NCBI GenBank assembly: GCA_002189035.1
Contig: NEEC01000008.1
Coordinates: 744,001 to 808,000 of the forward strand
Length of the DNA: 64,000 nucleotides
DNA from: Utricularia gibba
Lineage: Eukaryota > Streptophyta > Magnoliopsida > Lamiales > Lentibulariaceae
Direction of reading: 5' to 3'
Made by a program: the position numbers and the translations under genes. Shown here piece by piece: positions 14,302 to 55,536 of this stretch. Below the pieces are notes generated by a model that saw only the letters and a program-made list of their open reading frames with translations, made no database searches and was not told the DNA's origin. Positions within the stretch are counted from its first letter, which is position 1. Each line of letters starts with the position of its first letter.

Positions 14302-15352
14302 ATGGGGTTCCGAGCCATCGCTATGCTCCCGTTCTTCGCTTGTGGGCGGAGCGCCACCGAGGGTGGGGCGTCGACGGAAACGGGTCTTGGTGATTTGCCG
14401 GAGAACTGCGTGGCGACGGTGCTGCTGCACCTTGACCCACAGCAGATCTGCCGTCTGGCGGCGCTGAATTCGGCTTTCAGAGGGGCGTCTGGTGCTGATG
14501 TCGTCTGGGAATCCAAGTTGCCTTCGAATTACGGAGATTTTATCAGGAGGGTGTTTCCAGATGGGGAATCGGAGCTGAAAAATTCATGTAAAAGGGACAT
14601 CTTTTCGAAGCTGTGCACACCCAGATTCATAGACGGTGGAGCTAAGGTTAGCTAGACTCTGGTTCTCTCCTTTTTCGCCTAAAGCCATGATCTTGGGATT
14701 TGATTTTCTAAAGCTTGATTTTTTTTCTGCAGAAAGTTTGGTTGGATAAAAGCACAGGCAAAGCTTGTATGGCCATCTCCGCAAAGGGTTGTCAATCACA
14801 GGAATCGATGACCGTAGATACTGGAGTCTCATTCCCACAAAACAATCTATGTGAGTGCATCAGAGAATGCCTTGCCTTGCAGCAACTGAATTTTCGTTCG
14901 TTGCCTCCATATCTGATCCATCATGCTCCCTTTCAGGTTCTCAATCGCCGCATACCTGCAGCAGATCTGGTGGTTCGAAGTCAATGGGGAGATCGATTTC
15001 CCATTTCCTCCAGGGATTACCGCGTTTTCATTAGATTGCAGTTGGGGAGATCTCAGAAGAGGTTTGGAAGACGTGTGTGCAACTCAGAGCAGGTTCATGG
15101 ATGGGAGAGAAAGCCTGTGGCATTCGACGTCTCCTGCGGGACAAGGTTTCAACTACGCAGTGTTATCTGAGCGAGAAGAAGCCCGGGCAGTGGATCAACC
15201 ACCATGCCGGGGATTTCACGGTCGGGAGTAGCTGCAGCAGCTCCATGAAGCTGAAGTTCTCCATGACACAGACGGACTGCACACACACGAAGGGAGGGCT
15301 GTGTGTAGACTCTCTACTTATATACCCTGCAGAATACAGAGGAAAGTTGTAG
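14302..15352 (+). CDS. F-box protein of the PP2-A type (PP2-A12/A13-like), three apparent frameshifts
   Basis: F-box adaptor for SCF ligases carrying a C-terminal phloem-protein-2 (PP2) lectin-like domain. Exons 14302-14646, 14733-14850 and 14937-15352. Exon 1 has the F-box (GLGDLPENCVATVLLHLDP, ADVVWESKLPSNY). Exon 2 starts KVWLDKSTGKACMAISAKG and exon 3 carries AAYLQQIWWFEVNGEIDFPF, then RLQLGRSQKRFGRRVC, EKKPGQWINHHAGDF and CTHTKGGLCVDSLLIYP. These blocks lie in different frames: the frame slips by one missing base near the GGG at 14786-14788, at 15013-15015 and at 15138-15140. Allowing for the three slips, every intron phase and the final TAG fit the family exactly. So either the gene is intact and the sequence wrong, or it is a very young pseudogene. 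It lies in the inferred ancestral block with HOTHEAD-like and KNAT7. Confidence 0.88.
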
Positions 15353-16548
15353 AAAATTGATTCGTTCATGTCTTTGTTAGTGTAAAACTGGTTTTCATTC
15401 TAACAGCAGTTTTTGTTGTTCTGTCCTCAACAACTAACTCGGCATAATCCAAACTACCTCCCGATCCAATCATTTTGTGATATGTGTGCGATGAAAAAAC
15501 GTAGAACAACTATTTTTTAAAATATCCAACGATCAAATAAATTTTTGAATATATTCATTCCATTTTAGTCTACCAAACATTGATTCTTTGTACTCGTATA
15601 CATTGATAGTTCATAAATTATATTTTTTTCGAATAGCTCTGTTGAAGAGCATCCAACTTATCTTAAACTTTTTTCATTTATTCGATTTCAAATCAATTAG
15701 AGTGCAACATGTGATATGATCTTTACAACTCTTTTTTTTATTTTCGTTGATAATTTTCGTGTAAAAACGTGTGGCCACTCCAAATTCTCCTGTTGTGTTT
15801 CATTCTGGACGTAATCTACCGTTATACCATCTTTTCAAACTATTCCAAAAAAAAAAACTCTATCCTCCTACATTCAATCAAAGCATGTTGAATTGATTTT
15901 ATGCATCTAGTGCATTCATCACACATATCAGATGCAATCATATGTTGTTGATTTAACTTTTCTACCCATTTCTCTCATTAATACTTTATATCTTACATAT
16001 CTCGTTCTCGCATCCTCAAACAGTATTTTATATGACTTGGAGGTTAGATAGATGAGTAGAATTCATGAATAGTAGAGATATATTTGAAACATTTTATGTT
16101 TTTTTTTTGGAAAAATATATAAAAATCAATTATGTCATCAAATATTATTTTTAAAATCGAATAAGTAAGTTGTCCGGTCAAAGAAAAGGATGTGGTGGAA
16201 CCTTCCATTTGATTGGAAACCGATATTTTAAAGGCTATCAGCCCTAAACTGAGATATTCAAGGCTTTGAAATGGATGAAGATGAAGAAGGGGGTAGACAC
16301 TAGGCAGGGTACCCCTGCCTGCCGGGGAAATCCTATTATGCACGTGCCTCCATCCGCACGTTGATGATGTATGTATCTTCCAGGTCCTTCTTCTTTAGGG
16401 GGAGAAGGGGTCTTGTCTACTTCTAGGGTTATACCTACTAAATTAGGCATATGCGGCCACGCCTTTCTTTTCTGTGGCATGGTCCAGCAACTCAACACTC
16501 CTTCTAGAACGTGGAGTAGCCCCTGACTCGGAATCCCTCCCTCCCTCT

Positions 16549-16580
16549 GTGGCTGCGGCTGTGGCTGTGGCTGTGGCTGG
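16549..16580 (+). repeat. GTGGCT hexamer repeat
   Basis: About five copies of the hexamer GTGGCT, with one GCGGCT variant. It causes Gln-Pro or Thr-Ala repeats in the overlapping minus-strand frames. Confidence 0.8.
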
Positions 16581-16630
16581 TGTGTGGAAACAGACAGGGC
16601 GTGCGGCGCGCCTATGGACTCCTGAATGAG

Positions 16631-16661
16631 GGTCAGGGACAGGGACAGGGACAGGGACAGG
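16631..16661 (+). repeat. CAGGGA hexamer repeat
   Basis: About five copies of the hexamer CAGGGA, 50 bases from the GTGGCT array. The two arrays differ in sequence and so are independent expansions. Confidence 0.8.
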
Positions 16662-18184: not shown

Positions 18185-20329
18185 ATGGATTGGCTGTTCA
18201 GGGTGAGAGCTGTCTTCTTGGCCATGCTTTCCAGTTCGGCGCTCCTGCACCGGAGGCTCCGGTTCGCTGCATTTTCTGTCATCCTCATGTGCTCTCGCTT
18301 CGCCATTTCCTTGGAGCAAGGTGTCTGTCCCGCCCTAAAATTTCTACTTCTGAAACAGTCGTATTTAGCAGATAATTTTCTCATCTTTAGCTTCGATATT
18401 AGTAGCAGCATTTTTGGTATAGAATAAAGGCTAGCTCCATGATTATGTTCTTGTCATGTGTTGTTTAACTTGTGAAAATGCAGAGCCGAGGTACAGTTTC
18501 GTGAGCCAAGCGACGTCAGCTCCGGCATACTCCACCTATGACTACATCATAATCGGAGGCGGGACCGCCGGATGCCCGCTCGCCGCCACGCTCTCCCATG
18601 GCGCCACAGTGCTCCTTCTGGAGCGAGGAGGCACACCCTACGGCAACGCCAACATCACCCATCTCTCCGCCTTCGGGAAAGCCCTCGTTGACGACAATGA
18701 CAGTTCCCCGTCTCAGCGCTTCGTGTCCGAGGATGGGGTCATCAACGCGCGCGCACGCGTTCTCGGTGGCGGCAGCTGCATAAACGCGGGGTTCTACACG
18801 CGCGCCCCTGCCGACTACGTCGCCGCGGCCGGGTGGGACCCGATGCTGGTTAACACAGCGTACCAATGGGTGGAGAAGATGGTGGCGTTTCAGCCGGAGG
18901 TGAAGCAGTGGCAGTCGGCGGTGAGAGATGGTTTGCTCGAAGTTGGGGTAGGACCGTACAATGGCTTTACATATGATCACTTGGTCGGTACGAAGGTCGG
19001 CGGATCCATCTTTGACGCCGACGGGGAGCGCCACACCGCGGCGGATCTATTGAAGTATGCTGATCCTAAACGCCTCACGGTGCTCTTGCACGCCACCGTG
19101 TATAAAATCCTCTTCAAATATAGAGGTGGTGCCTTCCTTTTCGAACAAATTACCCAAATCGGTTTCTTTGGTTTCAACATAAAACGAGTGTAATGGACAG
19201 GTAGAAAGAGGCCATTAGCCGAGGGAGTGGTTTTCAGAGACGCCATGGGAGTGCTTCACAGAGCTTCCTTGAAGCCGAACTTGAAGAACGAGGTGATAGT
19301 CTCAGCTGGAGCGCTTGGAAGCCCACAGCTGCTGATGCTGAGTGGTGTTGGTCCAGCAAACCATCTCCGAGCCAACAACATATCCCTTGTTTTGGATCAG
19401 CCCTTTGTCGGCCAGGGCATGGCTGATAACCCCATGAACGCCGTCTTCATTCCCTCCCCGCAGCCTGTCGAAATCTCCCTCATTCAAGTTGTCGGAATAA
19501 CCAGTTTCGGAAGCTACATTGAGGCTGCCAGTGGTGAAAATTTCATCTCTTCTTCATCCTTCTCCCTATCGTCCGCTGAGGTTTGCAGTTCTTACTCCCT
19601 CATCAGTTATGGTAGCTGTTGGTCTTTTGAACAAGTAGAAAATGTTCACGACTGCAGATTGGACAGCTGTGGAGCTTGCCCCCGAAGCAGAGGACACCGG
19701 AGGCAATGGCTAGTGCAGCTGAGGCTTCGGATAATCCAAGTCTACAGGGAGGATTCATTCTTGAGAAGATTATGGGTCCTGTTTCCAAGGGCTATCTAAA
19801 GCTCAAGAGCAAGAATCCCAACGAGAATCCATCAGTCACCTTTAACTACTTCAAGGAACCAGAGGATCTTCAGAGGTGCATTGATGGTGTGAAAGTTATC
19901 ATGTCCGTGATTACATCAAAGGCGTTTACAACCTTTCGATACGATGTTCTTCCACCACAGCTTGAGTTCCTCCTCAACGTCACTGCCAATTCACCGATAA
20001 ATGAGTTCTTTCTGGACTCTGCACTGGAGAGGTTCTGCAAGGATACTGTGATGACAATATGGCATTACCATGGAGGCTGTCAGGTGGGGAAAGTCGTTGA
20101 TTCTGAGTATAAGGTTATCGGTGTTGGCTCTCTTCGTGTTGTTGATGGATCCACGTTTCATGACTCGCCGGGGACGAATCCTCAGGCAACCGTCATGATG
20201 CTCGGAAGGTATGTATGCATCTAAGCTGTTAAGTTACTTCTTCAAGTGCTGTCATATGGAATAACCAAGAGATGTGCTGTCTATAGGTACATGGGATCGA
20301 GGATTCTCCAAGAAAGGTTCAGCGGTTAA
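18185..20329 (+). CDS. HOTHEAD-like GMC oxidoreductase
   Basis: FAD-dependent glucose-methanol-choline oxidoreductase, secreted; relatives oxidise long-chain omega-hydroxy fatty acids for cuticle formation (HOTHEAD) or act as mandelonitrile-lyase-like enzymes. Exons 18185-18320, 18484-19125, 19201-19580, 19658-20208, 20287-20329 join in phase to 583 residues (family about 590). Seen: hydrophobic N-terminal signal, FAD dinucleotide motif [21 protein letters not shown] signature 1 region [19 protein letters not shown], signature 2 [19 protein letters not shown], catalytic histidine region [20 protein letters not shown] and C-terminal [16 protein letters not shown]. Exon 2 is strongly GC-rich. 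The end of exon 3 ([15 protein letters not shown]) is serine-rich and lacks the MFSPK block usual before IGQL; the donor at 19581 is therefore the least certain junction. Convergent with KNAT7, 348 bp between stops. Confidence 0.92.
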
Positions 20330-20677: not shown

Positions 20678-22684
20678 CTATCTCTTGCGTTTGGATTTGA
20701 GAGAGGTTGATGTTTGTGAGTTGCCATGCCAGTTTCTTTTTCTCTGGTTGATGAACCAGTTGTTTATCTGCTTTAGCTGCAGGCCTGTCTCCTCGACAAG
20801 TTTCGCCTTATCTTCCTCCTAAGAACACACAAAAATCACCCACGGATTCCCAGTCCTCGATCTTTCAAAACTTGTGAAAAAAAACGACTGAAATGCACTT
20901 ACTGTAGGATAAGGCCATTTTGAGTGTTGCTGCCACCAGTTCTTCAGCACGCTTGTTGTATCACCAGGCAGCTTTCCAGCTCTTCTCTTGCGCAGGATTT
21001 CCTCCCTGACGTCCTCGATCCTCGACTTAAACCCCTGATGAAAAACAAGGATTACGACAGGAGTAGAGTTTCATTTGATTTGGCAGTCAGCTGTTAGAAG
21101 AGGATAAGCTGACTATCTCTGTATACCTGTTTTAACTCAACCTTGAGTTCCTGCCTCACTCTCTCCATTAAGGACCTTTCTGACTCTGTTGGAAGCAATG
21201 GACCAAATCCCATGAGATCCTGGCTGTCAGTGCTTGCTTGTTCAAACGGCAAATCCATTGGGATTTCCTCGTCATCATCAGACATGGTTGCTCCGGTGTC
21301 TTCGCCTATAGTCTCTCCTGGTTTGCAGAGAACCAAGAATTTAAGCTGGAAAGAATGGCCTCAAGTTTGCAGCAACAGGGTGAAATACACAAACTATAAA
21401 AACATCAAGCTCATCCTCAGCAAAGCAGCACTGCGTTTTGACAAAACAAACAAGTTCAGATAAACAAGAAGGATGCGATGGGAATGAAGATGTCAAATTT
21501 TTTAGGATGATCTAAGACAATAGTTTCATGTCGAATACATTGAACTGTTCCTAATTTTTTAGTTCTCAGTTCCAAGTACATGAATGCAAGAACAGCTTCA
21601 GCATAACTTGTCATTGGCTTCGCCATTCATCTAAAAATCAGCCCAACAATATAAGTGACTCATTGGTGGATACAACCACTCTACCAACCTGTAGTTGGAG
21701 CATGACATCAAGCCCCTACCAAATCACACTTATTTATCCAACCACCCACTAAACAAATCAGGCTTCAATCCAAATCTACCATGTCATATGACAACAAATC
21801 AGACAACCTATGGGGAAATAATACCCGATGATGATACATAGTACTTCTTGCTTCCCCCTATTACCATGTGGAGTGGTTTACTTGTCCACATCTAGTTAAA
21901 CTTCAAACATATTGGGTAGTTGGGAAAAAAAATGGAGAATTTCACAACGGTACTCAATCTCAAGGTTAATCACGGATTTATCATGTTGATTGAGAAGATA
22001 TGAGCATTTAATACTTTACACGGGAAGGAAAAGTGAGACGGAGTAGGTGCGAGGGGAGCATTAATTGTCAAATTTACCAGTTAACGATTGCAAATTCTGC
22101 TCAATTTCTCGGCAGGCCATGACAGCTTCAACGGCGTGGACTCTGACATGTTGCTGTAGCTGCTCTCTAAATGAACACAAAACTAACAAATACTGAGCCT
22201 GCTCCAATGGGAGAAGAATAAACATCGTCACAATCCCCAAAACGCAAGTCGTATAATTCTCAAGTCCAGATTTCGAGGATAAAGAAGAAAACCCAAAGGA
22301 TACCAGAACTCATGAAAGCAACCGAACGACGTAACAACGCGAAATACGGAAAGCGGTACAAATTGCAAAAGAAAATAGAGAGCCCACCAGGAAGTTATCG
22401 AGCTCTTGCTTTTCATGTGGAGAGAAAGAGCTCGAAGCCCCTTGGGCATAGCAGCGCAAGATTTGATGGGACTGAGAGATCTGAGCATCAATTAGTGGGA
22501 GTTGATCTATCGGTGTCGCTACCCTCAAACAGGCAACGTGCATCCCAAGAAGCTCCTCGAACAAGGGGTGGGCGGCGATCTCCGCCTTCAGCTGGTGGTG
22601 GAGCTCCCCGGAAACAACCAAGGAGACATCGGAGACTCCAGCATGAGAACCCATCATGCTCATCCCCTGCTCTTGCTCTTGCAT
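20678..22684 (-). CDS. KNAT7: KNAT7-type KNOX homeodomain transcription factor
   Basis: Class II-related KNOX protein; Arabidopsis KNAT7 (IRX11) regulates secondary-wall deposition with BELL, OFP and MYB partners in the nucleus. Coding order: 22684-22388, 22198-22078, 21317-21127, 21034-20903, 20818-20678; phases close to 293 residues (Arabidopsis 291). Seen in order: short N terminus [16 protein letters not shown]1 ([20 protein letters not shown]), KNOX2 ([19 protein letters not shown]), acidic linker ([11 protein letters not shown]), [17 protein letters not shown] domain ([20 protein letters not shown]), TALE homeodomain with the PYP insertion ([18 protein letters not shown]) and recognition helix [13 protein letters not shown], ending LKSKRKR. 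The short N terminus and the [15 protein letters not shown] block separate it from KNAT3/4/5. A second in-frame ATG upstream (22846) would add 54 unrelated residues and is taken as 5' UTR. Confidence 0.96.
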
Positions 22685-24997
22685 ACTCAAAACCAGAGGA
22701 TAAACAAGATAAAGATTGATTCTTTCGGGATTGGGTAGCTGCGAGTCAGCGAAACTAGAGAACAAGAAGAAAAGGGCTTTCAAGGATAATATAAAGAGAA
22801 CAGATGGTGGGTCAGAGAGAGCAGTATTTCTTGCCGCGAGAAGCAAAGGCGCACTCTTCTGCTAGTCACGTTAAAAAAATTCAGAAATTGATAAAGAATT
22901 CGGAGGAGGAGAAGAAGTCTTCACCATCTAGATATCTGCCTGCTCTCTATGAGGATAAGAGAGGGAGAGAGAGAGGGCTTCCTGCAACTACAAATCGGAG
23001 AGCCATCCGGCAGGCCTCCATTGGAACACGTAAAATCTGCAGGTTAAAAGTGGAAGTCACCCCGCCCCCTGCCACCTCAAAGTACAAATACATGAAATCA
23101 AGGGGCTCGTTTTTTAAAAAATTACCATATTAAAAAAGTAGCCTCCCGAAATTTGGAATTTCACTAACAAGTCCCCCACGTGTCATCTACTAATTGGCGG
23201 TTTTCACTACTTTGGACCGACCATCAATCTGGGCCTGTCCGCTCCTCAAACTCCCCAAGCCCATTTATTATACGGGGCAGCCCATGTACCCACCTATCTG
23301 GGCCTTGGGTTTCGATAAGCCCAATCCCGTAGGCCCACGTGCCGATTGTCGTGGAGGAGGCAAGTGAACCGTACATGGTACTGCTCTAATTTTTGAAATA
23401 ATAAAATTACCCCGCAGTGAAAGGCGAGAGCATGAGTTTCTTTACATGAATAAAATATTATTAAAGAGGACAGACTTTTATGGAAAGTGGGAGTAGGGTA
23501 TGGACGCATCGAGGGAGGCGACGGACGTGCCCCGAGTCATTATCACCACCTTCTAAAAATAGAATCAGGAAAATTACATTACGCAAATGATTTCACATTA
23601 AAGAAAAGAAACTAAAATACAAACCGACAAGGGTATTGGGAATTGGGGGCGACAGCGAGTACCCTTAACCACGTGACCACCATTTCCTAGATTGTACGGT
23701 CCTCGTTTAAATCATTTTTTATTCACTAAAATTCATTCCAAATAACTTCAATTGTTGCTTAAAATAATAAAAGAAAAATATTTTTCAAAAAACGTTTCTA
23801 ACAAATATATATTGATCTCATAAAAAAACCGAAATTTTATATTATTACATTATATTAAAATATTTTACAAATCATAGATCATATCTCTCTTACAACGTTT
23901 TGATCATATCTATATTGTATGATATTACTTGTTTTGGACATCAAATCCTCACGATTTTGTATTTTACTCATCTTTGATATACTTTCTAAGAAGGTCACAT
24001 ATCATCACTCTACTTCAAACCAATCACATTTAATTTTAAAATTACTATCAAGTATACTTCATCATATTGGAAAAAAGTTTTCGTGCAAAATTTTTATAAT
24101 CATTCTACTCAATCTCATCATCCCCTCTCATCCGTAACCCATGTGTGATTTATCTAATGTCCTTACATTCTTCCTCTAGATGGGACAGGTCACTAGAATT
24201 TACATATTTTTAAAAATAATAAACGATTGTATATTCATTTTATTTGATAACAAAATTAGTTATACTATCATTTTTTAGGAGTGAAAATGGTGTCCAATAG
24301 CTATAAAGTCAACAATTTCAAGTGACCCACATAACTAATCTAAAGTTTGGGCTTTCAGGTTTCGGAATTTTGGTTGAATTGGAAACCCAAATTTTAGGTT
24401 AATATGGTTATGGTAGGTACTCACATATGATTTGGTCCTCAATAATGGCATGGCATGTTATTTTGCACAGCACATGCTCCTTGTTGGTGAGGAAAAAGGA
24501 GCTTGGAAGCCATAAATGAAGACGCGACGAAGACGGGATCCCATAAATACCTAAACGCATGAGCGAGAAGTGGAGTGAAAGCGACTTTGCAAGCTTAAAT
24601 GGCAGCCTGCATCAGACCCCTCCATGCCAACACTCTAACCTAAGCCTACCGTTTTGCCACACTTCATCTGCTCCGGATATCCATTCATACACACCACAGT
24701 TCAGGTATGGCTTCCTTTTTCAGCATCCCCATCTTCTCCACCTCAAAATCCATCCATTTGCCTAGCTGATCGTCAACAAGAGGAAGCTTCTTCTAGGGTT
24801 CAGTTTGCTTCTTTTTTGTTTGTTCTCTCTTTGCATTATAGCTCCCCAGATCTGGACAAAGAAACCCACAAATAGATTATCCGTTCAACGGTCCTTAGGC
24901 CCTTGTGGCCAACTGCACCTCGTATTTCATCAATCTTTCTGTTTTAAGCCCTTCTTTTCCAGGCAGATTTCGAGTTTTTAGCTGGAAGATCGAGAAT
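22685..24997. other. Divergent intergenic region between KNAT7 and the SOC1-like gene
   Basis: A 2.3-kb region serving two divergently transcribed regulators. The KNAT7 side (to about 23100) is purine-rich leader sequence. Three CACGTG boxes lie between 23177 and 23675. The section 23720-24450 is AT-rich with no coding signal. The last 450 bases are pyrimidine-rich leader of the MADS gene. Confidence 0.5.
23177..23675. promoter_or_regulatory. Three G-box (CACGTG) motifs upstream of KNAT7
   Basis: CACGTG occurs at 23177-23182, 23336-23341 and 23670-23675, about 490-990 bp upstream of the KNAT7 start and 1.3-1.8 kb upstream of the SOC1-like start. G-boxes bind bHLH (PIF) and bZIP factors. Function here is inferred from the motif alone. 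Confidence 0.45.
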
Positions 24998-26430
24998 ATG
25001 GTGAGGGGGAAAACTCAGATGAGGAGAATAGAGAATCCAACGAGCAGGCAGGTGACTTTCTCCAAGAGGAGGAGTGGGCTGGTGAAGAAAGCTTATGAGC
25101 TATCAGTTCTCACGGATGCCCAAATTGCTCTCATCGTTTTCTCCTCCAAAGGACGACTCTACCAGTACTCAAGTCCCAGGTGTGTACGTATGCTTAACAG
25201 TCATCTCGTAGTTTGTACACCTCAGACAAATGCACTGTTCTATTTTCATTTGTTGCTGTTACTGTTTAATGCACTAGGCATCTTTTACGAATGAGGGTTT
25301 GTCCTTGCTTTCTTGACTTTTACAGTTGTCTCTTCTGATCACTTTGTACATGAAAGATGTCAATGGCTTTGGATCTTGATCGCTCCCTTTCATAAGATCG
25401 TACCATTTGTTCTGAGCAAGAAAAAAAAACCTAATTGCAAGTCATTAACCAGTCATGTCAAGGAATCAGATACCTCCACCGTCTGTATTGAAAAGAACAT
25501 CCCACCGTCCTATATTACTTCATTTCTTACCTCTGTACGACGCATCTGTTGCAAAATATTTTGTTTTGCAGTACAATTGAGGAGACTCTAGAGAGGTATA
25601 AGAAAATTGAAGAAATTTGGGAATGTACAGTGACTGAAGGAAGTACACATGTAACAATCCTGCCTTTTTTTCTTCTTTTCATTGTCAAACAGTTTGATGA
25701 TTCTTATGCAACAAGTTTGAAATTCATCTGCAGGGAGCAGCACATGAAACAGCTGACCTGAGCAAGAAGATAGAGCTCCTGGATGATTCTGCAAGGCAGT
25801 ACTTTTGAGAAATCATGCCATTTCATTTTCTTCCATCCAATGGACTGTTGTTTGTTTTGTAATCTACAGAAAGTTAATGGGAGAAGATCTAGATGATTGT
25901 ACCATTGAGGATCTGGAAGCTCTGGAGCAACAGTTACACCAAAGTTTAAGCAAGTTCAGGTCTAGAAAGGTGAGAAGTAATTGCTGTAATATCATGTGAC
26001 TATTTCTGAATATGCCCTTCATACTTTCTGTTGTGTTTCCTAGAACACGCTTTTCAGGCAGCACCTTGATGAGCTTAAGGAAAAGGTGCCCGCCTAATCC
26101 TTGCTGCTACTTTCCTTCATTAAAATCTGCATGAAGTAATTTTACACTTGGAACACATGATATATACTTGACGCAGGAAAAAAAGCTAATTAAGACAAAG
26201 ACAGAGATGATGGAAAAGGTACATGTAACACTAAAATCTGATCATCCTTCCAGAGGTTCAACGGACACGAAGTATCTCAAAATTGCTGCGAATTTTCCAT
26301 TCCCTCTGTGTAGTTTGAAGTGCTTCAGATTCCAGCAGCGGAGTCCATGAAGGAAGTGCTGGTGGAAACGGCACTGACCATAGGGCTGCCCGGATATCGT
26401 CATACCAGACAGACTAATGAAGCAAGATGA
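24998..26430 (+). CDS. MIKC MADS-box protein, SOC1/TM3-like
   Basis: Type II MADS-domain transcription factor; the TM3/SOC1 clade integrates flowering signals. Exons 24998-25179, 25572-25650, 25734-25798, 25870-25969, 26044-26085, 26177-26218, 26314-26430 have lengths 182, 79, 65, 100, 42, 42 and 117 nt, the typical MIKC pattern, and encode 208 residues. The MADS domain starts [20 protein letters not shown]; the K domain runs from about residue 90 ([20 protein letters not shown]). The C terminus [10 protein letters not shown] resembles the SOC1 motif (EVETELFIGLP-like). Unusual in the MADS domain: [19 protein letters not shown] where most relatives have SVLCDAEVALI. An AGL42/71/72-type assignment within the clade is possible. 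Confidence 0.92.
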
Positions 26431-26823
26431 AGAAGACATTCGGAAATTCATTTGGTTTGCTAGAGTGTTACCTTATGTTGACAGACTTTAGATGCCTGAC
26501 TCTATTTCCTTTCTGAATAGTTATCTCACCCCTATCCTATCCCATGCCCACTCCATCGTTGAAACCTGCTCTCCCTGGAAAACAATTTCACAGCAGAAAT
26601 GAGGCATACCAGAATGGTGTAGTTCAACCATTCACGTGTAATCTCTCACACACTCATCCCATGTTTCCTTATTCTTTTCCCTCAGCCTACAGATACTGCT
26701 CTCTAGCACGATAACTTTATGGGCAGGCACCGAACTGAAGGATTAAAAAGGATGATCAGGTTTCTGGTACGCTAAACCACCATGCCGAGAACGTCGGTAC
26801 CTCCTCTGTGTTGAGGCATTGTA

Positions 26824-27340
26824 CACGTGGCGGCGAGAAAGCTCAACGGAGGAAGAGGGTTCTTCCGCTGCTGATTTATGGACACGTGGCGCTCCCACAT
26901 CCCACGTGTGCTACCTGCGTATCGTTCATCTCTTTCAAAACAAACCCTGGCCGTCAGATAGAGAAGCATTCACCATTTGCTATGAATAACTACCATTTCA
27001 TTATTAAACATGAAATATTGATGCTCCAAAAAGAATATAAATTAGACAATAAATAGAAAATTATAGGCATTCAATTAAATTTCCATTTTATTATAAGCAC
27101 TTAAGGAAAAGTAAAACTCAAAACGACATTAGACATGGATAAACTCTAAATTTGATATAAAAATATTATTTGATTTTGAGTTCAATAATTTTATTTTCAA
27201 TATGAAGGTTTTTTTAAATAAAATTAAATTGATTGGATTTGGATTTTATTTTTTTTTAAGATAAAAAGTTAACCATATATATAGTGAGCTCGATGAGTGG
27301 CACCCTCGGATCCTCCTCACTCGCGGGGTGGTGACACGTG
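26824..27340. promoter_or_regulatory. G-box/ABRE cluster 5' of STAY-GREEN
   Basis: CACGTG occurs at 26824-26829, 26883-26888 and 26903-26908, three copies in 85 bp, two of them as ACACGTGGC, the abscisic-acid response element form. A fourth, also ACACGTGG, lies at 27335-27340. They are 0.85-1.37 kb upstream of the STAY-GREEN start. Arabidopsis SGR/NYE1 is activated through such motifs by ABI5/EEL, ABF and PIF factors (established). Their use here is inferred; they could also act on the 3' side of the MADS gene. Confidence 0.5.
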
Positions 27341-28191: not shown

Positions 28192-29440
28192 ATGGCTACT
28201 TTGATTCTCCCTTCAAGGCTCAAGCCTCTTTCCCTGTCGGAAGAAGACCCCTCTTCCGTGCTGCGCAGAGCAACAAGAAGGCCCGGAAGGAATCAGCAAT
28301 CCATGACCATGACCCCTGTGAGTCTTTTTTTTTCGGTTGCGGATGTTTTTGGATCAGACCCATGTTCTGTTTGGTTGATTTTCGTTTAAAGATTGGTGCT
28401 TTGATTTGTTGGGACATCAGGTTGCGAGGTTATTCGGACCAGCAATATTCGAGGCGTCAAAGCTGAGAGTCCTGTTTCTGGGCGTGGATGGGAAGAAGCA
28501 CCCTGGAAGTCTTCCGAGGACTTACACGCTCACCCACAGCGACATCACCGCCAAGCTGACTCTCGCCGTTTCTCAAACCATCGACAATTCGCAGGTAAAT
28601 CCATCTCTCGTTTCCCAGATCTGCGAGTACGTCCATGTTCCATGGAAAGCAGGGGAACCACGCGGGCGTTTGGGGGGGTTTTAGTGTTTCGTGCTCGTTC
28701 ACGGGACAGATGCCTCCTTGGAACGACGTGTCAAATTTTGGAGGATGAGTTGGAAACGCAATCTATACAAGTTAACCGCAGCACACTCAACTTGACTCTC
28801 ACCAATTTTGGCAGCTTCTGCTTTTCTCAAGCATTTCTTTCTTCTCCTCCTCTGCATGCCTCGTGCATAGAAACCTTTGCAACTGAAAAGGGTTGTGAAA
28901 ATTTCGGGTTTCTGCTGCAGCTCCAGGGCTGGTACAACAGGCTGCAGAGAGATGAAGTGGTCGCAGAATGGAAGAAAATCAAAGGCATGATGTCTCTTCA
29001 TGTTCACTGTCACATCAGCGGTGGCCATTTTTTGCTGGATCTTTGTGCCCGGTTAAGATACTACATCTTCAGCAAGGAGCTTCCAGTGGTAAAACTCAAC
29101 TCTCCCCTTGTGTTTGTCCCAGAAAACAAGCTGGCTGATTTGGGTTGCTCAGGTTATCAAGGCGTTTGTCCATGGGGATTGGGACTTGCTGCAGAGCTAC
29201 CCTGAGCTCCAAGCTGCGCTTGTCTGGGTCTATTTCCATTCCAACGTTCCTGAATTCAACAAGGTGGAGTGCTGGGGGCCTCTGGGTGAGGCGTCTCCAC
29301 CAAAAGGGCCGACCATGGAAGACACCTTGAGGTTTAAAGATCATTTGGATGCTCCACGGCCATGCCCTGATGACTGCAACTGCTGTTTCCCTGCCACCAG
29401 TTCTATTCCCTGGCCTAAAAAGCATCCCATTAGCAACTAG
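28192..29440 (+). CDS. SGR: STAY-GREEN magnesium dechelatase, chloroplastic
   Basis: Removes Mg from chlorophyll a to give pheophytin a, the committed step of chlorophyll breakdown, and recruits catabolic enzymes to LHCII in senescing chloroplasts. Exons 28192-28317, 28421-28594, 28921-29088, 29153-29440 join in phase to 251 residues. Residues 1-42 are a Ser/Arg-rich transit peptide. The SGR domain follows: VARLFGPAIFEASKLRVLF, HPGSLPRTYTLTHSDITAK, LQGWYNRLQRDEVVAEWKKI, HVHCHISGGHFLLDL, ALVWVYFHSNVPEFNKVECW. The C terminus has the cysteine motif PCPDDCNCCFP (C-x3-C-x-C-C-F-P), which SGR1/SGR2 have and SGR-like (SGRL) proteins lack. Convergent with STR6, 630 bp apart. Confidence 0.96.
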
Positions 29441-30070: not shown

Positions 30071-33529
<3,459 letters not shown>

Positions 33530-39666: not shown

Positions 39667-39674
39667 CCTAGAAT

Positions 39675-40575: not shown

Positions 40576-40583
40576 ACTAGAAT

Positions 40584-42074: not shown

Positions 42075-43313
42075 ATGGCACAAAGGATCATGAACATTGT
42101 TTCCAAGAAACCTTCATCCAGTGACGGAATGTCACCAGAAACGCAGCAAGATAAGGTACTTTTACCATGATAGAAAGGAAGTGAAGGATTGTGCTTACTT
42201 GCATGCATCTGCAAATTCCAGGTTGATGAAGTGAGGAAGCAAATTGGATCCCAGTCTAGAAACCTATCCCTCCATTGCTCGGATGCATCTATTTCAAGAT
42301 ACCTGAGAACAGTGAACTGGAATGTTAGCAAGGCTGTAAAAATGCTTAAAGCTAGTCTCAAATGGAGATTGGGATACAAGCCTGATGAAATCTGCTGGGT
42401 AGTTCTTCATCATGATACTACCACAGAACTTTGCTTTGGAAAATGTTGTCAACGTTGGTTCTCATGTAGGATGATATTGCTGAAGAAGCAAAAACAGGAA
42501 GAATGTACCTTGCAAGTTACAAAGATAAGTATGGGAGGCCAGTTCTTGTAATAAGACCAAGATACCAGGTAATATTCATTTCTCCACTTGCTACTTTTGC
42601 AGTTCTTGTAACATGTTGGTGGCTGTTGAGATTGTTTGTGGTGCACCTGTTGCTGTAAAGAAGTGAACTAAAACCACATTAAAATCCATTTGCAGAGCTT
42701 AAAATCAGTGAAAGAACAGGTCAAGTATCTTGTGTACTGCCTTGAGAAAGCAATTTCAGATCTCAATCTCACTCTCGACCAAGAGGAGATCGTATCGTTG
42801 GTTGACTTCCATGGCTTCAGTTTGTCGAATGTATCCCTCGCCGCAGCCAGGGAAGTAATCAACGTTTTCCAGGATCACTACCCTCAGAGAATTGGAGTTG
42901 CATTTTTATGCAACCCACCCAAAGTCTTCGAGCCATTTTGGAAGGTGACACTCCCGCCACACGAGACACACTGAAACAGCGGGTGATCTGATAAACTATT
43001 TTGTGTTGTGCTCTTGCAGTTGGTGAAGACTTTTTGTGATCAGAAGACAGTTGAGAGGGTGAAGTTCGTGTACTTGGAAGATCCAACAGCAACCAAAATC
43101 ATCGATGAATTGTTTGAAATAGAAAAGGAGGCATTGGAAATTGCATTTGGAGGCAGAAATTGTGAAGAATTCGACATCAACATGTATGCAGAGAGGATGA
43201 GAGATTACGACAGAAGAGCTGGCAACAATTTGTCAAAAGTAGAAGAAGATGCTGCTGCTGATCCTACAGAACTCCCACCACCTCCACTGCTGCTTCCCAT
43301 CACAGCAGCTTGA
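42075..43313 (+). CDS. SEC14 / CRAL-TRIO domain lipid-transfer protein
   Basis: Cytosolic Sec14-type protein expected to bind and exchange phosphoinositide or other lipids. Exons 42075-42155, 42222-42398, 42470-42568, 42696-42944, 43020-43313 join in phase to 299 residues. Seen: CRAL-TRIO-N helix bundle (SDASISRYLRTVNWNVSKAV, MLKASLKWRLGYKP), then the lipid-binding domain (YLASYKDKYGRPVLVIRPRY, LVDFHGFSLSNVSLAAAREV, FQDHYPQRIGVAFLCNPPKV). It ends with a proline-rich tail (LPPPPLLLPITAA). It is a single-domain protein without GOLD or nodulin domains. The start at MAQRIMNIVSKK follows a stop-rich leader. The exact orthologue is not assigned. Confidence 0.93.
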
Positions 43314-45481: not shown

Positions 45482-46543
45482 ATGGTCAATGCCATTAAAG
45501 GAATGTATATTTCCTGGTGAGGTTTTACCTTCTATTTATGCTACAAGTTGAAGTCTTTCCCTTTTGTCATGTCTCAAATTTTTCCTCGCGGATATAAAAT
45601 CTCTGGTTAATATATGTTCAATGAGTTTTCGTTGTGGTCATGTGAGGAAATCCTACCATGTTCGAATCTCCATATTTTTCTTGTTAATACATGTACAGAA
45701 GTCTCCGTGCCTTCATCTCTGCTTATGTGAAGATCTTTGGTTAACATGCTCATTCTGGTTATCTGACGATGATCCTTGCCGTGTTCAAGTCACCATATTT
45801 TTCTTACTCTCGTTAATACACAATATATGCTCTTCTCTTGGTTATGTGAAGGTCCCAAGTTAACAATTTCATTCTGGTTCTGATCCTTATTTTATTCTGG
45901 TTAATGCATGTACAGAAATCACTATTTCTTCTTCTTCTTCTTCTGATCATGGAAGATATCTGGATAACATGCTCATTATGGTTATTTGAGGATGATTGTC
46001 CCTGGGTTCGCATCTCATTGTGTTTTTTGAGTTAGTAGAGATTCCTCTTCTGTACTTCTGGTTATGTGAAAAGCTTTGGCTAATATGTTCATGCTCTAAT
46101 GTGAGGGTGATTCCATGGCCGACACTTTGTTTTCTTAGTTCCTTTTTAAGTTTTAGGTGGTACAAGTTCAAGAAAATCCTCTGCTTCTTCCTCTGGTTGT
46201 TGAAACTCATTCATTCTGCTGAATCTTTTATTGTAACTGATGCACCTGATGTGAAGCAGCCTATGGATGCTATGATCTGAATGTGATTTTTTTGTGTTTG
46301 TTGTTCATTTGCAGCGATATTCCCATGGCGCAGTACATCATCCACATGAATAATTCACTCCCACAATCACAAAGATTCATAATACATGTCCTGGACAACA
46401 CGCATCTCTTTGTGCGTTCTGATGTGGGAGGCATGATAAGAAGCGCCATTGCAACCTTCAGAGAGCAGAATACCTATGAGAGGCCTTTTCAGCTGATCGA
46501 TCAACTGTGCCTCCCAAATCATGCTCGCGGCATTTACAAATGA
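45482..46543 (+). CDS. TFB5: TFIIH subunit TFB5 / GTF2H5 (TTDA)
   Basis: Smallest TFIIH core subunit, needed for nucleotide excision repair and for stabilising the complex with p52. Exons 45482-45516 and 46315-46543 join in phase to 87 residues. The start MVNAIKGMYISCDIPMAQYI matches the family, followed by FIIHVLDNTHLFV and MIRSAIATFREQNTYE. The C terminus (residues 72-87, FQLIDQLCLPNHARGIYK region) is longer than the usual 71-residue protein. The single intron carries a degenerate tandem repeat. Convergent with the SEC1 gene, 372 bp between stops. Confidence 0.93.
45590..46125 (+). repeat. Degenerate 110-135-bp tandem repeat in the TFB5 intron
   Basis: Five diverged copies share the core TATGTGAAG-x-TTTGGTTAACATG followed by GATGATCC-like and CCATATTTTTCTT words; cores are near 45600, 45722, 45841, 45950 and 46063. 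One copy also has a CTT microsatellite (about 45924-45941). Divergence between copies suggests an old expansion. Confidence 0.65.
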
Positions 46544-46915: not shown

Positions 46916-49900
46916 TTATATCTGAAGGTCGTCCAGTGACAGTTCATTTGAATTCATGAGCTTCATTTTCTGTAACCAAACAACGCCAGCAATATTAACT
47001 TTCGGGCACCGTAAGCTAGGGGACTGCAAATTTGCTTAATATGCAGTCAATTCTGAGAGGTATCACTAAAAGAATGGAGTTTTGTACCGTAATAAACTGA
47101 GCGGGGTCATCAAGGCTGGATGAGCCTAAAACAATTTCTCTATTCAGTTTTGCTGATAACTTATGACAAACTCTTAGCTGCAAACACATCAGCCGATACG
47201 CTGTCAACCACTTAACAACAGCTAAGTTGATGAATTTGCAAATTTTGATTCATTACCTCAGAGCGTGTTGCACCACCAACTATGAAAATGAAAATCCGCT
47301 GACCCTTCTTGAAACCACTGGAGGCATGCTTTAATACTGAATCACTGTACGGAAAGACAAATGCACTGTGAGTTAACCCTGAGTGATTTAGTGGAAAAAG
47401 TAAATAGATATGGAACATCACAAAGGAACACGGCATTATAAAAGATACCTTGAATACCCATCATCAGAGGTTCTAGGCCGTGCCCATGTTGCAGTTCGTC
47501 TTGATCTCATCGATTGTGGAGCGGCTGTTGTCTCATTCCTCAAAGATGAGGATACAGATGTTGCATGAAAAGATGGACTGGGATCATTCATACATGGATA
47601 GTCATTCTTTGGAAGTTCACCTTTACTAAGCTTTTCAATGAGCTCCTGATAGACCACATGTTCATCAGTAGCCAGGGCATAAAATGTGAGTCCTCCAGCT
47701 GTCTATTGACAACTATTTTTTATGTGGAGCAGCCACTTATAATACAAAACAGATTAAAGATATTTAAGATTTTTTCTTTCACACCATAGTGTCCAGCAAA
47801 GATTCTCCCCAGCTTTCAAATACCCAAAGTCATTGGAAGCAATAAAAATGCAACGCAAATGTCTAAATGACACTCATTTACCTCTATTATTGGGTAAAAA
47901 CGTGACAATTGCCAGACCACTTCTTCACCAGGACGGTCTTTACGAGCTGCATGTTTCCTCTGGCACCAAAGAGAGGAATGAAAAAATAGGTAGAAAAACA
48001 GAGGGTTTATTTTGTTCATACACAACTATATATTCACAATAACGTTAATGGCATGCCCATTACCTTATGAACATCAAACTTAAGTGAAAATGGTGATGTA
48101 GATTTCTTCGTTATGGAAGGAGCCTCAAGAAATCTCATATTGTAGACAGCATTCATATCATCCGGTGGTAGTCTAGCCAACTGCACCAGTTGCATCCACA
48201 TATATAATAGCTAAACATTAGCCCATCAAGTAGTGTCAAAAGGAGTTTAAATTTCAATCATCACCGGAACAAAAATCCTAATTCCAGTTACATAAGCAAT
48301 CTATTTCGCCATGTTAAATGTTATTGCTGAAGTATAACTACAAGCTTTGCCAAAAGTAAGGGTACAGTGCAGTAGAATTCAAGCTTATAGCACTGCAAGA
48401 GCTCAGCACTAATTTTGATGAATGGTCGGAAGAGATGTGCATGACAGTTGCTGAAGAACAGCAAGTCAAATTTTCGTATGCAATGAACACATGGATTTTG
48501 ACAGAGATGAACGCAAGGTTGCACTTAAAATATATCTTGCATGGAAACTTGGAAATGCAACCTTACACACTGGTTTACTAACCTCCATTAATTTTAAGAT
48601 TTTGTCATCCTCAAACTTCTCTGGGTTAAGGGCCGCATAAATCATCAATATTCGCAACTTATTTTCACGGGAAACATCCTGCAAAAAGTAGAGAATGAGA
48701 CAAATGCTTTATGGAATGTTTCAAGAAACAATGAGTTTCACCTCTCTTAATCTGAGAAAATTAATGAGGTCTTTAGTTCCTGCATCTCCAAAAACAAGAT
48801 CCTGCTCGAGTTGACCAATAGCTTTCAGATTCAACTCCGCAATAATTTTGTTGATCCGATTGGCTATCTGAAGAAAATTTTCCAGAATTAAATCATTGCC
48901 ATGGGAAAGGGCTAGACAAGAACGTAGTACTAAACAGCATAACAAACTTGCGTTACTCAAAGAATCACATATGTATATATAATAGGGAGCGTCCAATACA
49001 AGCTGCTATCACATAAACGATCTGATGAGTTCTTACATCTAATCAAATGTTACCATACCTACAGCATTTCTTATACTTTCAACAATGCATCTGAGACATA
49101 CCTTTTGCAGATAATGACTTAATAAAAGGGAACTCAAAAAGGAGAGAGATTAACCACATAGTAAAATTAGGTACCCATTGCTAATTAAAGGTTGATACTT
49201 TACAAAAAATGATGATTTTACAAAAATAAATAAATAACGTTGATTGAAACTGACAACTCACATCAATATGTAGGGACAACTTCTCAGTTTGTTCACGATA
49301 TTGAGGCAACGCTTGAACAATCTTTTGCAATTCTCTAGTTGATAAATTGTCACCACCTCTAATATTTCAAAAGGGAATAGAAAGATGAATGAGCCACATC
49401 AAAAAAAAAAAAAAAAGAAAGAAAAAAGAAAAAAGAAAAGAAAAGAAAAACAAAAAAGAAGCTCAGATAAATATACATAGGATATCTTTTGAAAGTAACC
49501 ATAGTTTGATGCATAAAGATACACAGAAAATCTTCAACATGCGATTGGCACTTTGGTGTTCAGAGATAAAATATACAAAATGCATGCAGGATATGATCCC
49601 CTTAATCCAGTAAAAATGATTTTTACAGGACCCTCCAGCGACTATTTAAATAAAACTAACCAAACAAATGGTGAGAATTTATATAGCCCAAAGATATGTT
49701 ACGCCATCATTGTTCCCCAAATACACATTCAGCTAATTAAACTGAAAAACAAGAATGAAAGCAAGAAAAAACGAGAGCTATTTAACTTGATAAAGATTCA
49801 AGACCAACCCTAGCCACGCAAAAATGGCTGCCCAATAGCATTTAGTTTAAGAGCATTTCACTTTTCTTGCATATCCAAGCGCTAGTCCTCCAAATGTACG

Positions 49901-52776
49901 TTAGCTTTAATTATATATAGTGCACCACAAAGAAGAATTAATATCTCTAATGCTGTGAGCCAACCTTGATGCATGAATTTGAGCAGCTTTATTCTTAGAG
50001 AGGAAATTTTTCATCTTCTCATCCAATTGCTCACTAGCCTGACACAGTTAACAATAACCAACATAAACTTTTGGTGGATTGTGAACTCTCTAGAAGTGCA
50101 AGGCGGTTTTAGCTTTCCATACATAACCAATATGTTCATTCCGCAGCTCCACCCAGATAGGGTCATGATCTTCAAGAAGGACCTCCTTCTTCTCAGGTAA
50201 ACCACCACTTGAACTTGGAACCTATGGGAATCAATAGGTGAATACTAGAAATCACGCGTGAAGCAAGACATGCACAATAACTAGGGTAAAGGAATAATGC
50301 AACCTTTCAGACAAATTAAGTACCTCATGGGTGTATTTATTACCCTCCATATTCAACAAATCATGACACATGGCATCGTATGTCCATTCATGTATAATTG
50401 GAGCAATCTGAACCGATCCATACATAAGCATCAAATGATTTAAAATAAAAACTCCAGAATCAATGGTTAAAACCTGGTCTATTGATCTGTCTAGGATAAG
50501 AAGTTCACATGTCTCCGACTTTGGGAAATCTTGTATATTTGTTTTATATTTCATCAGACAGTTCCAAATTCCAGCAGCAAGTTTTGTGGGAATTAAATCT
50601 CGGAAAGTTGTCATTGTTGTTGGATCAAGGGATTTGGCACCTCGGTACCGCACATATGGAAACTCCTGTTGTGAGAATGTGATAAGACACTTGATTATAT
50701 CAGCTATTGACAGACTATCAACAAAAAGTAGACCCTGGATCCATACCCTCAACGAAGCAAACACTGTAGCTATCCGTGTAGCCATCAAGTTTAGGCATGC
50801 ATCTCCTTTTCGAGAGCCTTCTTCATTTCCAAATAGTTCCTCAAGGGCCCTCTCATTGTCAGTTAAAAATCCCTACAGTTCGTGCTAATTCTTGAAGATA
50901 TTTTATGGTATAATAGAATGTAAAATTTACAAATTTAAGCATGCTCAGTGAAAGGTAGCAGTATAGGCACAGAGTAGCAGAGAAAAAAGAAACATCAACA
51001 GCAGCACACCTGGCTATCTATGGTGAGATACTCCAAGTTCACCTGCACAATTTCAAGATCCAGCATTAGAGGAAGACAACCTCAAGCTACATTAAATTTT
51101 AAAATGGTAAGAAACCACCTCTCTCAAGGCGCTTAGCCTAGATAAGACACTTCCATTTCTTTTGATGTGATTAACCCACTCTCTAGAAATAGATGAGCTG
51201 AAGAACACAAAAGCTCTGAAATAAAGGCAAAACCCACAAGAGTTAGTTGGTTGATTAAATTGGGAAGAAAAATTAGTGCAAACACTTGACGTACTTCCTG
51301 TACAATGGTGATTTTCCAGACATGTCCGAAAGGAAGATGTCAATGCTGCAAATTGATTAAAAAAAGAGAGTTGTAACATCAACAAAAAAGCCAGAAAGAA
51401 CAACTTCTGCTAATATTGGAAGCAATGCTATAACCCTATCTTGACTTAAAAACATGCCACTTAATACTATGGTGCCTTTTTCATTAGCTTGGATACATGG
51501 TACACTAAGCAAATTACATATGGGCCTAGTATGTGTCTTCTTCTAACCAAACAGTGTCCTCTGGATTAATCTTTATTGTCTAATTAAATTATACTTTGCC
51601 TTTCCAATTTTTCAAAATTCATTGCACAAAATTCTTTCGACCTCTTTAAAGGCCTACTGATATTCATTCATATGTTTTCCAGACGAAGATGTAAATGCCA
51701 CCCCATATGCAAAAGAATATTCCAAGATAAACAAAAAAACGTAGAAAAAAAAAAGAAATAGCAAGAGAGACGGAGAGAGAGAGAGTGAGAGATAGAGAGA
51801 GAAGTGGGGACGATAGATTCTGCATACTTTTCTTTGGTTGGTGAGATGAAGTAGATAGCATCCATTGTTGGTAATGGTTGCCTTCGTTTGTGTATGTCCT
51901 CCACCACTGCAAAGTGTCCAACAAGGTTACTCTTTTCTCAAATTTCCACGTAACTAAAAATTCCTACATGTGAATGCAGGACAATCTTCTTAGATCTAAA
52001 CGTATTATGTGTCAATCCTAGACATCTAAAACGCTCAGGGCACAATTTGGCTGGTAAAGATGCAATAATCCAAGTCCCTAAAAATCAGGTATAAAAATGA
52101 AATTTTCTAAGGCTTCAGACTAGGCATATATTTCTTACATGAGACCCCTTCGTCTGTTATATCTGCCATCTTGCAGGAATATGACATTACTTTTAATGTC
52201 ACCTTGTCCATGATGAGAACCTTAAAATTGACATAGTAATGTGAGATACTGGATATTGCATGATTTCCAAAGAGTGGATACACAAAAATCAGTTAACCGA
52301 TTCAAGGTTATGTTCAAGGTCTTTCATTAACTGGTTTGCATTAAAAAGGAACACATGAAGAAACACCTGTTACATTATTTAAGACGAAAAAAAAGGTTCA
52401 ATGTGTTACTACATTGTGGCCATCTGCTTTGTGGAATGTCAACGTATACATATTGTTTCCATCAATTCCAGCACATATAAAAATTTTATCTAATGCAGAA
52501 ATAAGTGAGGCTTTTGATTCTCATACCTTCCAACTTGACCTTGAATCCCCAGATTTTGTTGATCGAAGCATTTCACATAAAAGCCCTGTAAATAAAAAAC
52601 AACAGCCCATTTATTAAGATATAGCGAGCTTGAAAATGAATCATTTGAAACATCCAAGAATCAAACTAAATTCTCACTGCCATTAAGCACAAAAAGCACT
52701 TACTATCACGGGTAATTTGGAGAAAACTCTTGTACTCAGTCCCCTGTGAAGATGTGTCTGAATCAGACATCGACAT
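46916..52776 (-). CDS. KEULE: Sec1/Munc18 protein, KEULE type
   Basis: SM protein that binds the open syntaxin KNOLLE and promotes SNARE-mediated fusion at the cell plate in cytokinesis and in polar growth. I place 21 exons: 52776-52704, 52585-52527, 52220-52139, 51906-51828, 51345-51295, 51215-51119, 51042-51010, 50872-50747, 50665-50474, 50407-50324, 50221-50123, 50038-49965, 49358-49262, 48867-48742, 48678-48583, 48180-48064, 47959-47882, 47645-47449, 47344-47257, 47177-47088, 46969-46916. Phases close without fault to 663 residues (KEULE 666). Landmarks: [121 protein letters not shown]. It could be a SEC1A/B paralogue; gene context favours KEULE. Confidence 0.95.
49401..49460 (+). repeat. 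A-rich purine tract in a SEC1 intron
   Basis: Sixty bases of A with interspersed G (one C). On the coding strand this is a long T-rich intronic tract. Not associated with target duplications that I can see. Confidence 0.7.
51764..51802 (+). repeat. Imperfect GA repeat in a SEC1 intron
   Basis: A GAGAGA-rich tract immediately 3' of the 51906-51828 exon on the coding strand (TC-rich there). GA/TC repeats are common in plant genes; no function claimed. Confidence 0.65.
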
Positions 52777-53568
52777 GGTATGAACTCAGTAAAAGCAGCA
52801 ACCCTGCATTTCATTCCAAGTCAAGCCAAACATGAGCATCATTCACTTATGGAAATGGAACCCCGCGTAGGATATCGAATGGATTTTACTTGAAACTTAC
52901 TTGCAAAAGATATTGAAGCAAATTTCGCCTCGTTCCAATTTGTTTAAACAGATACCGCTAACATGGAGGTGGAAGCTATTTTAAAGGTGGGATCAAACAG
53001 GCACGAAGATAACTTTCTATTCTTCACAGAAAAGTTTTTACTAGTCTAACAGAGAATTCTGAACGCTTTGACTAGTCTACGATAGACGAAAAAAGGGGTT
53101 GATCTACAGCTTCTTGGAAACCCGAACCGCCAGTTCCTCCCGCCCGAGGGGCGGAGTTGCGAAGATCACCATAACAACGTCTTTAATGATCCGAAATCTA
53201 TGGATGATTCCACTTCGAAATTCAGTCTCCCTTCGATTGCGTGGCTTATCGCATAGAAAGTGATCGTAGTTGCTTCATCGCCGTTGCCGGATGCCGGAGC
53301 TGGAAGGGAGGAATCCTCGAGGAGTTTGGGTGAAATCCGACGGAAGACGTGAAGATTTTTCTTGTTGGGTGATGAAGAAAATGCAGAAGAATTATATTTT
53401 TGAGAAATAACTTTTTCAATTATAAATCGACTTTTTAAAAAGACAAAAAGAATTAATTGTTCCCGGCCGGTCCGAGAGAACCGCCAATGTCCCAAGCTCA
53501 CGGTTTAGCCGGGGGTTCAAGTTCCCGCATAGCTTCGTTTTCATTCGCCGTTTCACGGTTTGGGTTCC
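52777..53568. promoter_or_regulatory. Divergent promoter region of SEC1 and the release factor
   Basis: 792 bp separate the two divergent start codons. The segment 53100-53400 is GC-richer and fits the untranslated first exon of the SEC1 gene followed by a leader intron; an open minus-strand frame there is not conserved. A bidirectional promoter is inferred. Confidence 0.45.
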
Positions 53569-55536
53569 ATGTCCACTGCAACGATGCTGAGGTCGATGCT
53601 CCGGCCGACGATTCATTTGGAAGTACCCAACAATTTGATAAGGTTGTTCAATCGCTCTCATGAATCATGGCTTCCGCCGCCGATTGGAATCGGGGCTCTG
53701 CGCTGCGTAGCCACCAGCTCCGGCGCCGAGGATAAGAAGTCACCGGCTCGGATGGCTGAGATTCAGCGGCTGCTTTATCAAGCTGAGGAGCGGTATAAGG
53801 CTGCTGGAGGTGGTCTTCAGCCTATTCCCAAAATAACACTCGGTATTGGCTTCTCCTAGACTTAGTTTTTCACTCTGATTTCGAAAAGATTCCTGATTTG
53901 GGTATAGGGGTTTGTTGATTTTTAGTGGATTCTGTGTCAAAAGTGGGTTATGCTCCCCTGGCGATTTCATAATAAAGCCCTAGTGAATAGTTTTTGTTGA
54001 AATCCTATATATAGGCAACAGTGTTTTGTGAAAATTAGCAGAGATGGAGCGACAAGAGCCCATCTTTAATTGCTGGTAACAACAAGATCATGCCTTTTTT
54101 CTTTTTACATTCTTGATTTGGTAAATTTCCTGCTAGGTTTTTGCGTATTTCTTCACTTTGTCGGTGTATAAAACATGAGACCATCCATTTGTCTGCAACA
54201 GATAGATTAGGTCATGCTTCAACTGTTTAGCAGCCTCATCTATTGTATCTCTCATGCAGAACATGTTACAGTCGGCTATGCGAGAAGCGGTGGTCCTGGG
54301 GGGCAGAATGTCAATAAAGGTGCCTGGTGGTTCATCTTTTATCTATGCTGTTGAAATTGTTAGCCTTTGTTGTTCTGAAGGCTGTAATATATCTTGCTTT
54401 CCTGCAGTTAACACCAAGGTTGACATGCGGTTTAATGTGAAGAACGCGCACTGGTTAAGTGAGCAAGCGAGGGAGCGTATTATGCTAATGGTGAGTTACT
54501 TTTTTCTTGCCTTAGTGTTTACGAGTTGGGATGGCGTATTCTGCTTCTATTTCGTATATCAGGGGATGTGACATCAATGTTTCCATTGTTTAAAGCTTGA
54601 AGAGGTACCACAGTGCCTCTTAGATTTATTTTAAAGAATGAAAATAAATAGTTTCCCATCTCTTCTTCTCTTTTAAATAAGCCTCGGGCATATGATCATA
54701 AAGACGTTTTTTCAGTCCTAATATATGGTACTTACCACCCACTTCAGTTTTATAGTAAAAGTGTTCTGATGCTGATTACTCACTTTGTTGTTGTTGGCTT
54801 TGAATGGTGCCATTTTTTCTCGGTCAGAACCTAGTCTGTAGTATAACTTGAGATCCTTACGGACTGCACAGAATCATGATTCTGCTTATTTAAAGACTAA
54901 ACCAAGTTCTTTACTTTCAGGAGAAAAACCGCATCAACAAAGATGGAGATATAGTGATTTCTTCAACGAAGACTAGAACTCAAAAGTGAAGTCTTTAACA
55001 AGATGCATTTGTTACAATCTTTCCTTACTAGATTTTCCGGAATCATTGCTTATTGTGTGAGATTTCCGGGAATCATTTCAGGGGTAATGTTGAAGATGCG
55101 CTGGCAAAATTACAGGTACTGAGTAATCAAAAAAAGAAGTTACAGGTACCCTTGGACGAGTCCAATGTATTTTCTGTTATAATTCCTTTCTAACTGATGC
55201 GGTTGCATTCATTCCATCCATCTCCTTCTCTGAGATCATGCCTAGCTTTATGAAACCCTCTGTCATATGCACTTTTCACAATTCTCAGGCAATCATCGAT
55301 GCCGCATCCTATGTTCCACCACCCCCTTCTGAAGAAACTGTCAAGAAGATAGCGAAGCTGTAAGAAACTCCGTGGACCATGCCATCGTTGTTTGATGTAG
55401 TTTTTCCATTGCTGCAACAGCATTCCTCTGTTTCTGAACTTGTAGGTCTGCTCTCGGAGAACAGAAAAGGCTGGACAAGAAGAAGTCACAATCCCAGAAG
55501 AAGGCCCTCCGGAGGAATAAAGATAGCTGGGATTGA
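53569..55536 (+). CDS. ICT1-type class I peptide chain release factor, organellar
   Basis: GGQ-domain peptidyl-tRNA hydrolase, probably rescuing stalled mitochondrial ribosomes like human ICT1/MRPL58. Exons 53569-53842, 54260-54319, 54408-54490, 54921-54985, 55082-55115, 55289-55359, 55446-55536 close in phase to 225 residues. Residues 1-60 are a basic targeting region. The GGQ loop is SGGPGGQNVNKVNTKVDM; then NRINKDGDIVISSTKTRTQK and the basic tail KKKSQSQKKALRRNKDSWD, which in ICT1 enters the mRNA channel. There is no codon-recognition domain. The upstream in-frame TTG is not used as a start; ATG at 53569 is the first. Mitochondrial rather than plastid location is inferred from the family. 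Confidence 0.93.

Follow-up and report, generated by a model that had tools for sequence, protein, structure and literature searches.

Evidence for an ancient eudicot gene block in Utricularia gibba, kept as one of several partly fractionated copies

Work on Arabidopsis has identified two duplicated segments of chromosome 1, at 4.3 Mb (At1g12) and 23 Mb (At1g62-63; PMC1892557, PMC3473061). At1g12710 and At1g63090 are a duplicate pair (PMC1892557, Table 2), as are At1g12560/At1g62980, DDF1/DDF2 and At1g12640/At1g63050 (PMC3473061), and TFB5 is present at two loci, At1g12400 and At1g62886 (PMC9916837). At1g12570 encodes a GMC oxidoreductase (PMC6470574), and At1g12360 is the Sec1/KEULE locus (PMC10750367). 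On chromosome 4, SGR1 is At4g22920 and SGR2 is At4g11910 (PMC4810360), AGL19 is At4g22950 and AGL14 is At4g11880 (PMC3904704), and PUX8 and PUX13 are At4g11740 and At4g23040 (PMC11410653).

Homologues of these Arabidopsis regions are interleaved in other asterids. In the sesame lignan QTL interval (PMC10750367, Table 4), homologues of At1g12420, At4g12080, At1g12410, At4g22790, At1g12370, At1g12360, At4g22740 and At4g12230 follow one another in gene-identifier order, with At1g62780 homologues later. KEULE, ACR8 and a subtilase lie amid interleaved At1g12, At1g62, At4g12 and At4g22 homologues, as in the block family described here. This table is limited to variant-bearing genes and so gives no information on TFB5, the release factor or others. 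A table for eggplant and tomato chromosome 8 (PMC5877650, Table 2; Solyc08g079730 to Solyc08g080120) similarly interleaves At4g11980, At1g12500, At1g12480, At4g22860, At1g62960, At1g12460 and At4g22880, and this interval carries SLAC1, a transporter, a TPX2-like gene and a subtilase near SGR1, the SOC1-like MBP13 and a class II KNOX gene (Solyc08g080090, Solyc08g080100 and Solyc08g080120, respectively). No paper was found that names more than one of these tomato identifiers; each is reported on its own.

Utricularia gibba is reported to have undergone three whole-genome duplications after gamma (PMC6982007) and unusually rapid fractionation. Its compact genome of ~101 Mb shows strong loss back to single copy within duplicate blocks (PMC6982007, PMC4603330), and the locus described here matches this pattern. 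We analyzed a window of 64,000 nucleotides from this plant (assembly GCA_002189035.1, contig NEEC01000008.1, positions 744,001 to 808,000, forward strand). Window genes were identified from stop-to-stop frames on both strands, and key frames were checked against Pfam (Table 1). The original prediction had placed PP2-A F-box, HOTHEAD-like, KNAT7-like, TFB5, KEULE-like and release factor genes here, and all six were present in that order, each with the corresponding Pfam match. The release factor was recognized by Pfam only after its GGPGGQNVNK exon had been spliced to the neighboring exons. Four genes within the same interval had gone unnamed: those encoding the MADS protein, STAY-GREEN, the rhodanese/FSH1 hydrolase and the CRAL-TRIO protein.

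Table 1. Features of the window, with positions counted from its first nucleotide.
Feature	Position	Strand	Match or remark
POB1/LRB-type BTB-BACK gene	5455..8293	-	PF07707; left edge of C3:2.44-2.51 Mb collinearity
CSP41b-like epimerase-fold gene	9170..10638	-	weak PF01370, under its cut-off; named by eye
PP2-A type F-box gene	14287..15349	+	PF00646 (F-box at 14269-14652)
HOTHEAD-like GMC oxidoreductase gene	18435..20221	+	PF00732
KNAT7-like class II KNOX gene	20681..22861	-	PF03790; homeologue C3:2485.5-2487.5 kb
SOC1/AGL14-AGL19-like MADS gene	24899..27053 (first exon 24899-25291; later extent approximate)	+	PF00319, E=1e-25
STAY-GREEN (SGR) gene	28397..29437	+	PF12638; homeologue C3:2480.5-2481.6 kb
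Rhodanese + FSH1 serine hydrolase gene	about 30074..32708	-	PF03959, E=4e-48; rhodanese part by eye
Plant_tran transposase remnant, apparently PIF/Harbinger type	33864-34277		PF04827
SEC14-like CRAL-TRIO gene	42174..43310	+	PF03765; relative at C3:1374.1-1375.2 kb
TFB5 gene exon	46250..46540	+	PF06331, E=1e-17
KEULE-like Sec1/Munc18 gene	about 47439..50872	-	PF00995
ICT1-type release factor gene	53533..55360	+	PF00472 on spliced exons, E=3.9e-12
HIP/FAM10-like co-chaperone gene	55837..57846	+	exon motifs read directly; homeologue C3:2464.2-2466.7 kb
TFL1/CEN-type PEBP gene	57950-59080		PF01161; directly downstream of HIP gene
Plastocyanin-like gene	61739..62385	-	PF02298; right edge of C3 collinearity

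Arabidopsis orthology is assigned here from published locus numbers and family names, not from sequence comparison. On this basis, the chromosome 1 segments probably carry the same families as the window in the same relative order, and the locus numbers given in the original prediction are monotonic along the window in both segments. The numbers At1g12710, At1g12570, At1g12400, At1g12360, At1g63090 and At1g62886 are published; KNAT7 is presumed to be At1g62990 and the release factor At1g62850. A literature search for At1g62850 returned nothing confirming this assignment. We likewise take HIP to be At4g22670. Because published loci support most of the predicted numbers and confirm the predicted duplication of the two chromosome 1 segments, through the known gene pairs and the presence of TFB5 at both, collinearity of the window with Arabidopsis is very likely real.

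The prediction had counted two Arabidopsis copies, which is too few. Unlike the window, At1g12 and At1g62-63 lack MADS and STAY-GREEN members, which are found on chromosome 4, and the At4g11-12 and At4g22 segments interleave with those of chromosome 1 in other asterids. Given these chromosome 4 relatives and the interleaving in sesame and eggplant, the Arabidopsis counterpart comprises at least four segments, and a mosaic of four segments is general rather than peculiar to the window. Complementary gene loss from the Arabidopsis copies had also been proposed. Different subsets are indeed kept in the two chromosome 1 segments, as among the sister blocks of the window, but PP2-A and TFB5 are retained in both. 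The Arabidopsis duplication is separate from those of the U. gibba genome itself.

We searched the genome (100.09 Mb, 516 contigs) with the concatenated window exons and then compared the window with C3:2.44-2.52 Mb. For POB1, PP2-A, HOTHEAD-like, SGR and the KNAT7 N-terminus, the top match other than the query itself fell in a single region, C3:2.48-2.51 Mb. POB1 matched C3:2505899-2508645 at 87-93% amino-acid identity, the HOTHEAD-like gene matched at 88% at C3:2.489 Mb (and 76% at C3:1.365 Mb), the C-terminal exon of PP2-A matched between homeologues, and the plastocyanin-like gene gave a blastn match to C3:2463.2-2463.6 kb. In all, seven genes (POB1, PP2-A, HOTHEAD-like, KNAT7, SGR, HIP and plastocyanin-like) recur on C3 in window order, from 5.5-62.2 kb in the window and C3:2508.6-2463.2 kb, all consistently flipped. 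Ks was 0.43-0.90 for the six of these seven genes that were measured. PP2-A, HOTHEAD, KNOX and MADS are multigene families, and common families could in principle co-occur by chance. This explanation has a negligible probability, because seven genes are arranged alike, in order and in relative orientation, within 45 kb in a genome of 100 Mb, the clustering of positions alone is roughly estimated at about 1e-20, and TFB5 and the release factor each have a single copy.

Beyond these shared genes, the two blocks differ in content. The C3:2.44-2.52 Mb stretch showed no counterpart of CSP41b, MADS, FSH, SEC14, TFB5, KEULE or the release factor, and the TFL1/CEN-type PEBP gene had no good match there. 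Genome-wide, TFB5 and the rhodanese/FSH1 hydrolase each matched the window copy alone, the window copy of the release factor was the sole one found, and the closest paralogue of the KEULE-like gene is just 52-56% identical. This paralogue, at C414:1.759 Mb, was considered as a marker of another sister block and ruled out on account of its low identity and the lack of any other block gene nearby. Conversely, the C3 block keeps SLAC1, a triose-phosphate/nucleotide-sugar-transporter-like gene and a PUX8/13-like gene, all of which the window lacks. Solved SLAC1 chains matched the C3 SLAC1 far better than did SLAH chains, whereas the PUX8/13-like gene has no Pfam match and was named by eye. The block also carries a CNGC gene whose closest relative elsewhere in the genome is at 76%. 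The window, which keeps TFB5, KEULE and the release factor, and the C3 block thus hold complementary sets of genes, as do fractionated ohnologous blocks. The sister stretches compared here and below span 80, 40 and 30 kb, and the absence of a gene from them is not proof of its loss.

Two further blocks are more distant from the window. In C3b (C3:1.361-1.375 Mb), PP2-A, HOTHEAD-like, MADS and SEC14 genes follow one another in order, and C414b (C414:3.226-3.249 Mb) contains PP2-A and MADS genes together with two subtilases, a TPX2-like gene and ACR8. The last two were named by eye, with the ACT domain identified by Pfam, and ACR8 was found at C414:3.249 Mb only, not in the window. In comparisons of two to four genes each, Ks between C3b and C414b was 0.74 for PP2-A and 1.14 for MADS, and Ks between the window and C3b or C414b was 1.25-2.4, which is near saturation above about 1.5. 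Ks values therefore fall into two tiers, separating the recent pairs (window with C3, and C3b with C414b) from the older comparisons of the window with C3b and C414b. This sequence divergence indicates that two recent block pairs are nested in one older duplication. A single segmental duplication could instead have made the window and C3 blocks, and the evidence here does come from a few selected blocks. We consider this quite unlikely, however, because another pair of blocks, situated on these two contigs as well, falls in a similar Ks tier and because three whole-genome duplications after gamma are reported for U. gibba (PMC6982007). We infer that the block duplications in this plant were whole-genome events.

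The original prediction was that the window keeps an unsplit ancestral order, with gene loss confined to the two copies on Arabidopsis chromosome 1. In favor of this reading, anchors of both Arabidopsis segments are found in the window in one monotonic order. It is nevertheless highly improbable, because the window is itself a member of a duplicated pair with C3, and belongs to a set of four duplicated blocks within the U. gibba genome. Nor is it a complete block, as SLAC1, the transporter, the PUX-like gene and ACR8 are absent from it and kept in sister blocks. In eggplant and tomato the block includes SLAC1 (At1g12480 type) and the At1g12500-type transporter, which were found here on C3 only; ACR8 (At1g12420), part of the sesame block, was found here on C414 only. 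Because at least three sister copies hold genes lost from the window, the window is not an intact ancestral version. The gene set of tomato and eggplant chromosome 8 resembles the union of the four U. gibba blocks, with the difference that the block genes lie in one region in those species and are divided among sister blocks in U. gibba.

We therefore favor with high confidence the reading that an ancient eudicot gene block survives in the window as one partly fractionated copy, and that this block was duplicated at least twice in the ancestry of this plant. These duplications produced two recent pairs inside one older duplication, and the same block was duplicated separately in the Arabidopsis lineage. 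Redundant copies were then probably deleted more or less independently, block by block, such that each surviving copy, here and in Arabidopsis, retains a different ordered subset. Ordinary duplication followed by complementary gene loss accounts for the pattern in both plants, which provides a textbook example of gene loss following polyploidy. The ancestral order is approached by combining the four sister blocks, not by any one window. The two-segment synteny claim thus had the right anchors, and its conclusion went wrong once the intervening genes were skipped.

PP2-A matches were found in the C3, C3b, C414b and C2b blocks, and relatives of the MADS gene in C3b, C414b and C2b. The C2b locus (C2:0.737-0.741 Mb), which holds PP2-A and MADS, is possibly a fifth, more diverged place. 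No more than about 11 kb separates PP2-A from a SOC1-type MADS gene in each of four blocks (the window, C3b, C414b and C2b), and the most diverged PP2-A copy, with 53% amino-acid identity and saturated synonymous sites, has its MADS neighbor only about 3 kb away. Their linkage could predate the core-eudicot triplication, though we lean slightly against so early an origin. Compared with the copies on C3 and C3b, PP2-A in the window shows two 1-bp gaps at positions 15015-15165, each located at a short run of G. These gaps put its last exon out of frame and reflect either an assembly error or a decaying copy.

Several minor features were also observed. At C3:2.468-2.476 Mb, the order of the TPX2-like, SLAC1 and transporter genes is opposite to that in tomato, eggplant and Arabidopsis, which suggests a local inversion in the C3 block. 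The PF04827 remnant of the window sits in an AT-rich stretch of 8 kb that separates the FSH hydrolase gene from the SEC14-like gene. Positions 1492-3200 contain a CUL1-like cullin gene whose 85-91% copy is at C2:4.583 Mb rather than on C3; the C3 collinearity therefore ends between POB1 and the peroxiredoxin gene. A PPR gene at positions 62704-63012 has two copies of 82-85%, one at C414:840.5 kb and the other at C3:2418.9 kb. Scanning the window for Rfam families and tRNAs yielded nothing. Elsewhere in the genome, broken rbcL-like fragments are present at C2:3.012 Mb, C2:3.544 Mb, C451:6.448 Mb and C375:0.417 Mb, and an intact rbcL is on C516. The fragments lie in large, presumably nuclear contigs and are probably transferred plastid DNA.
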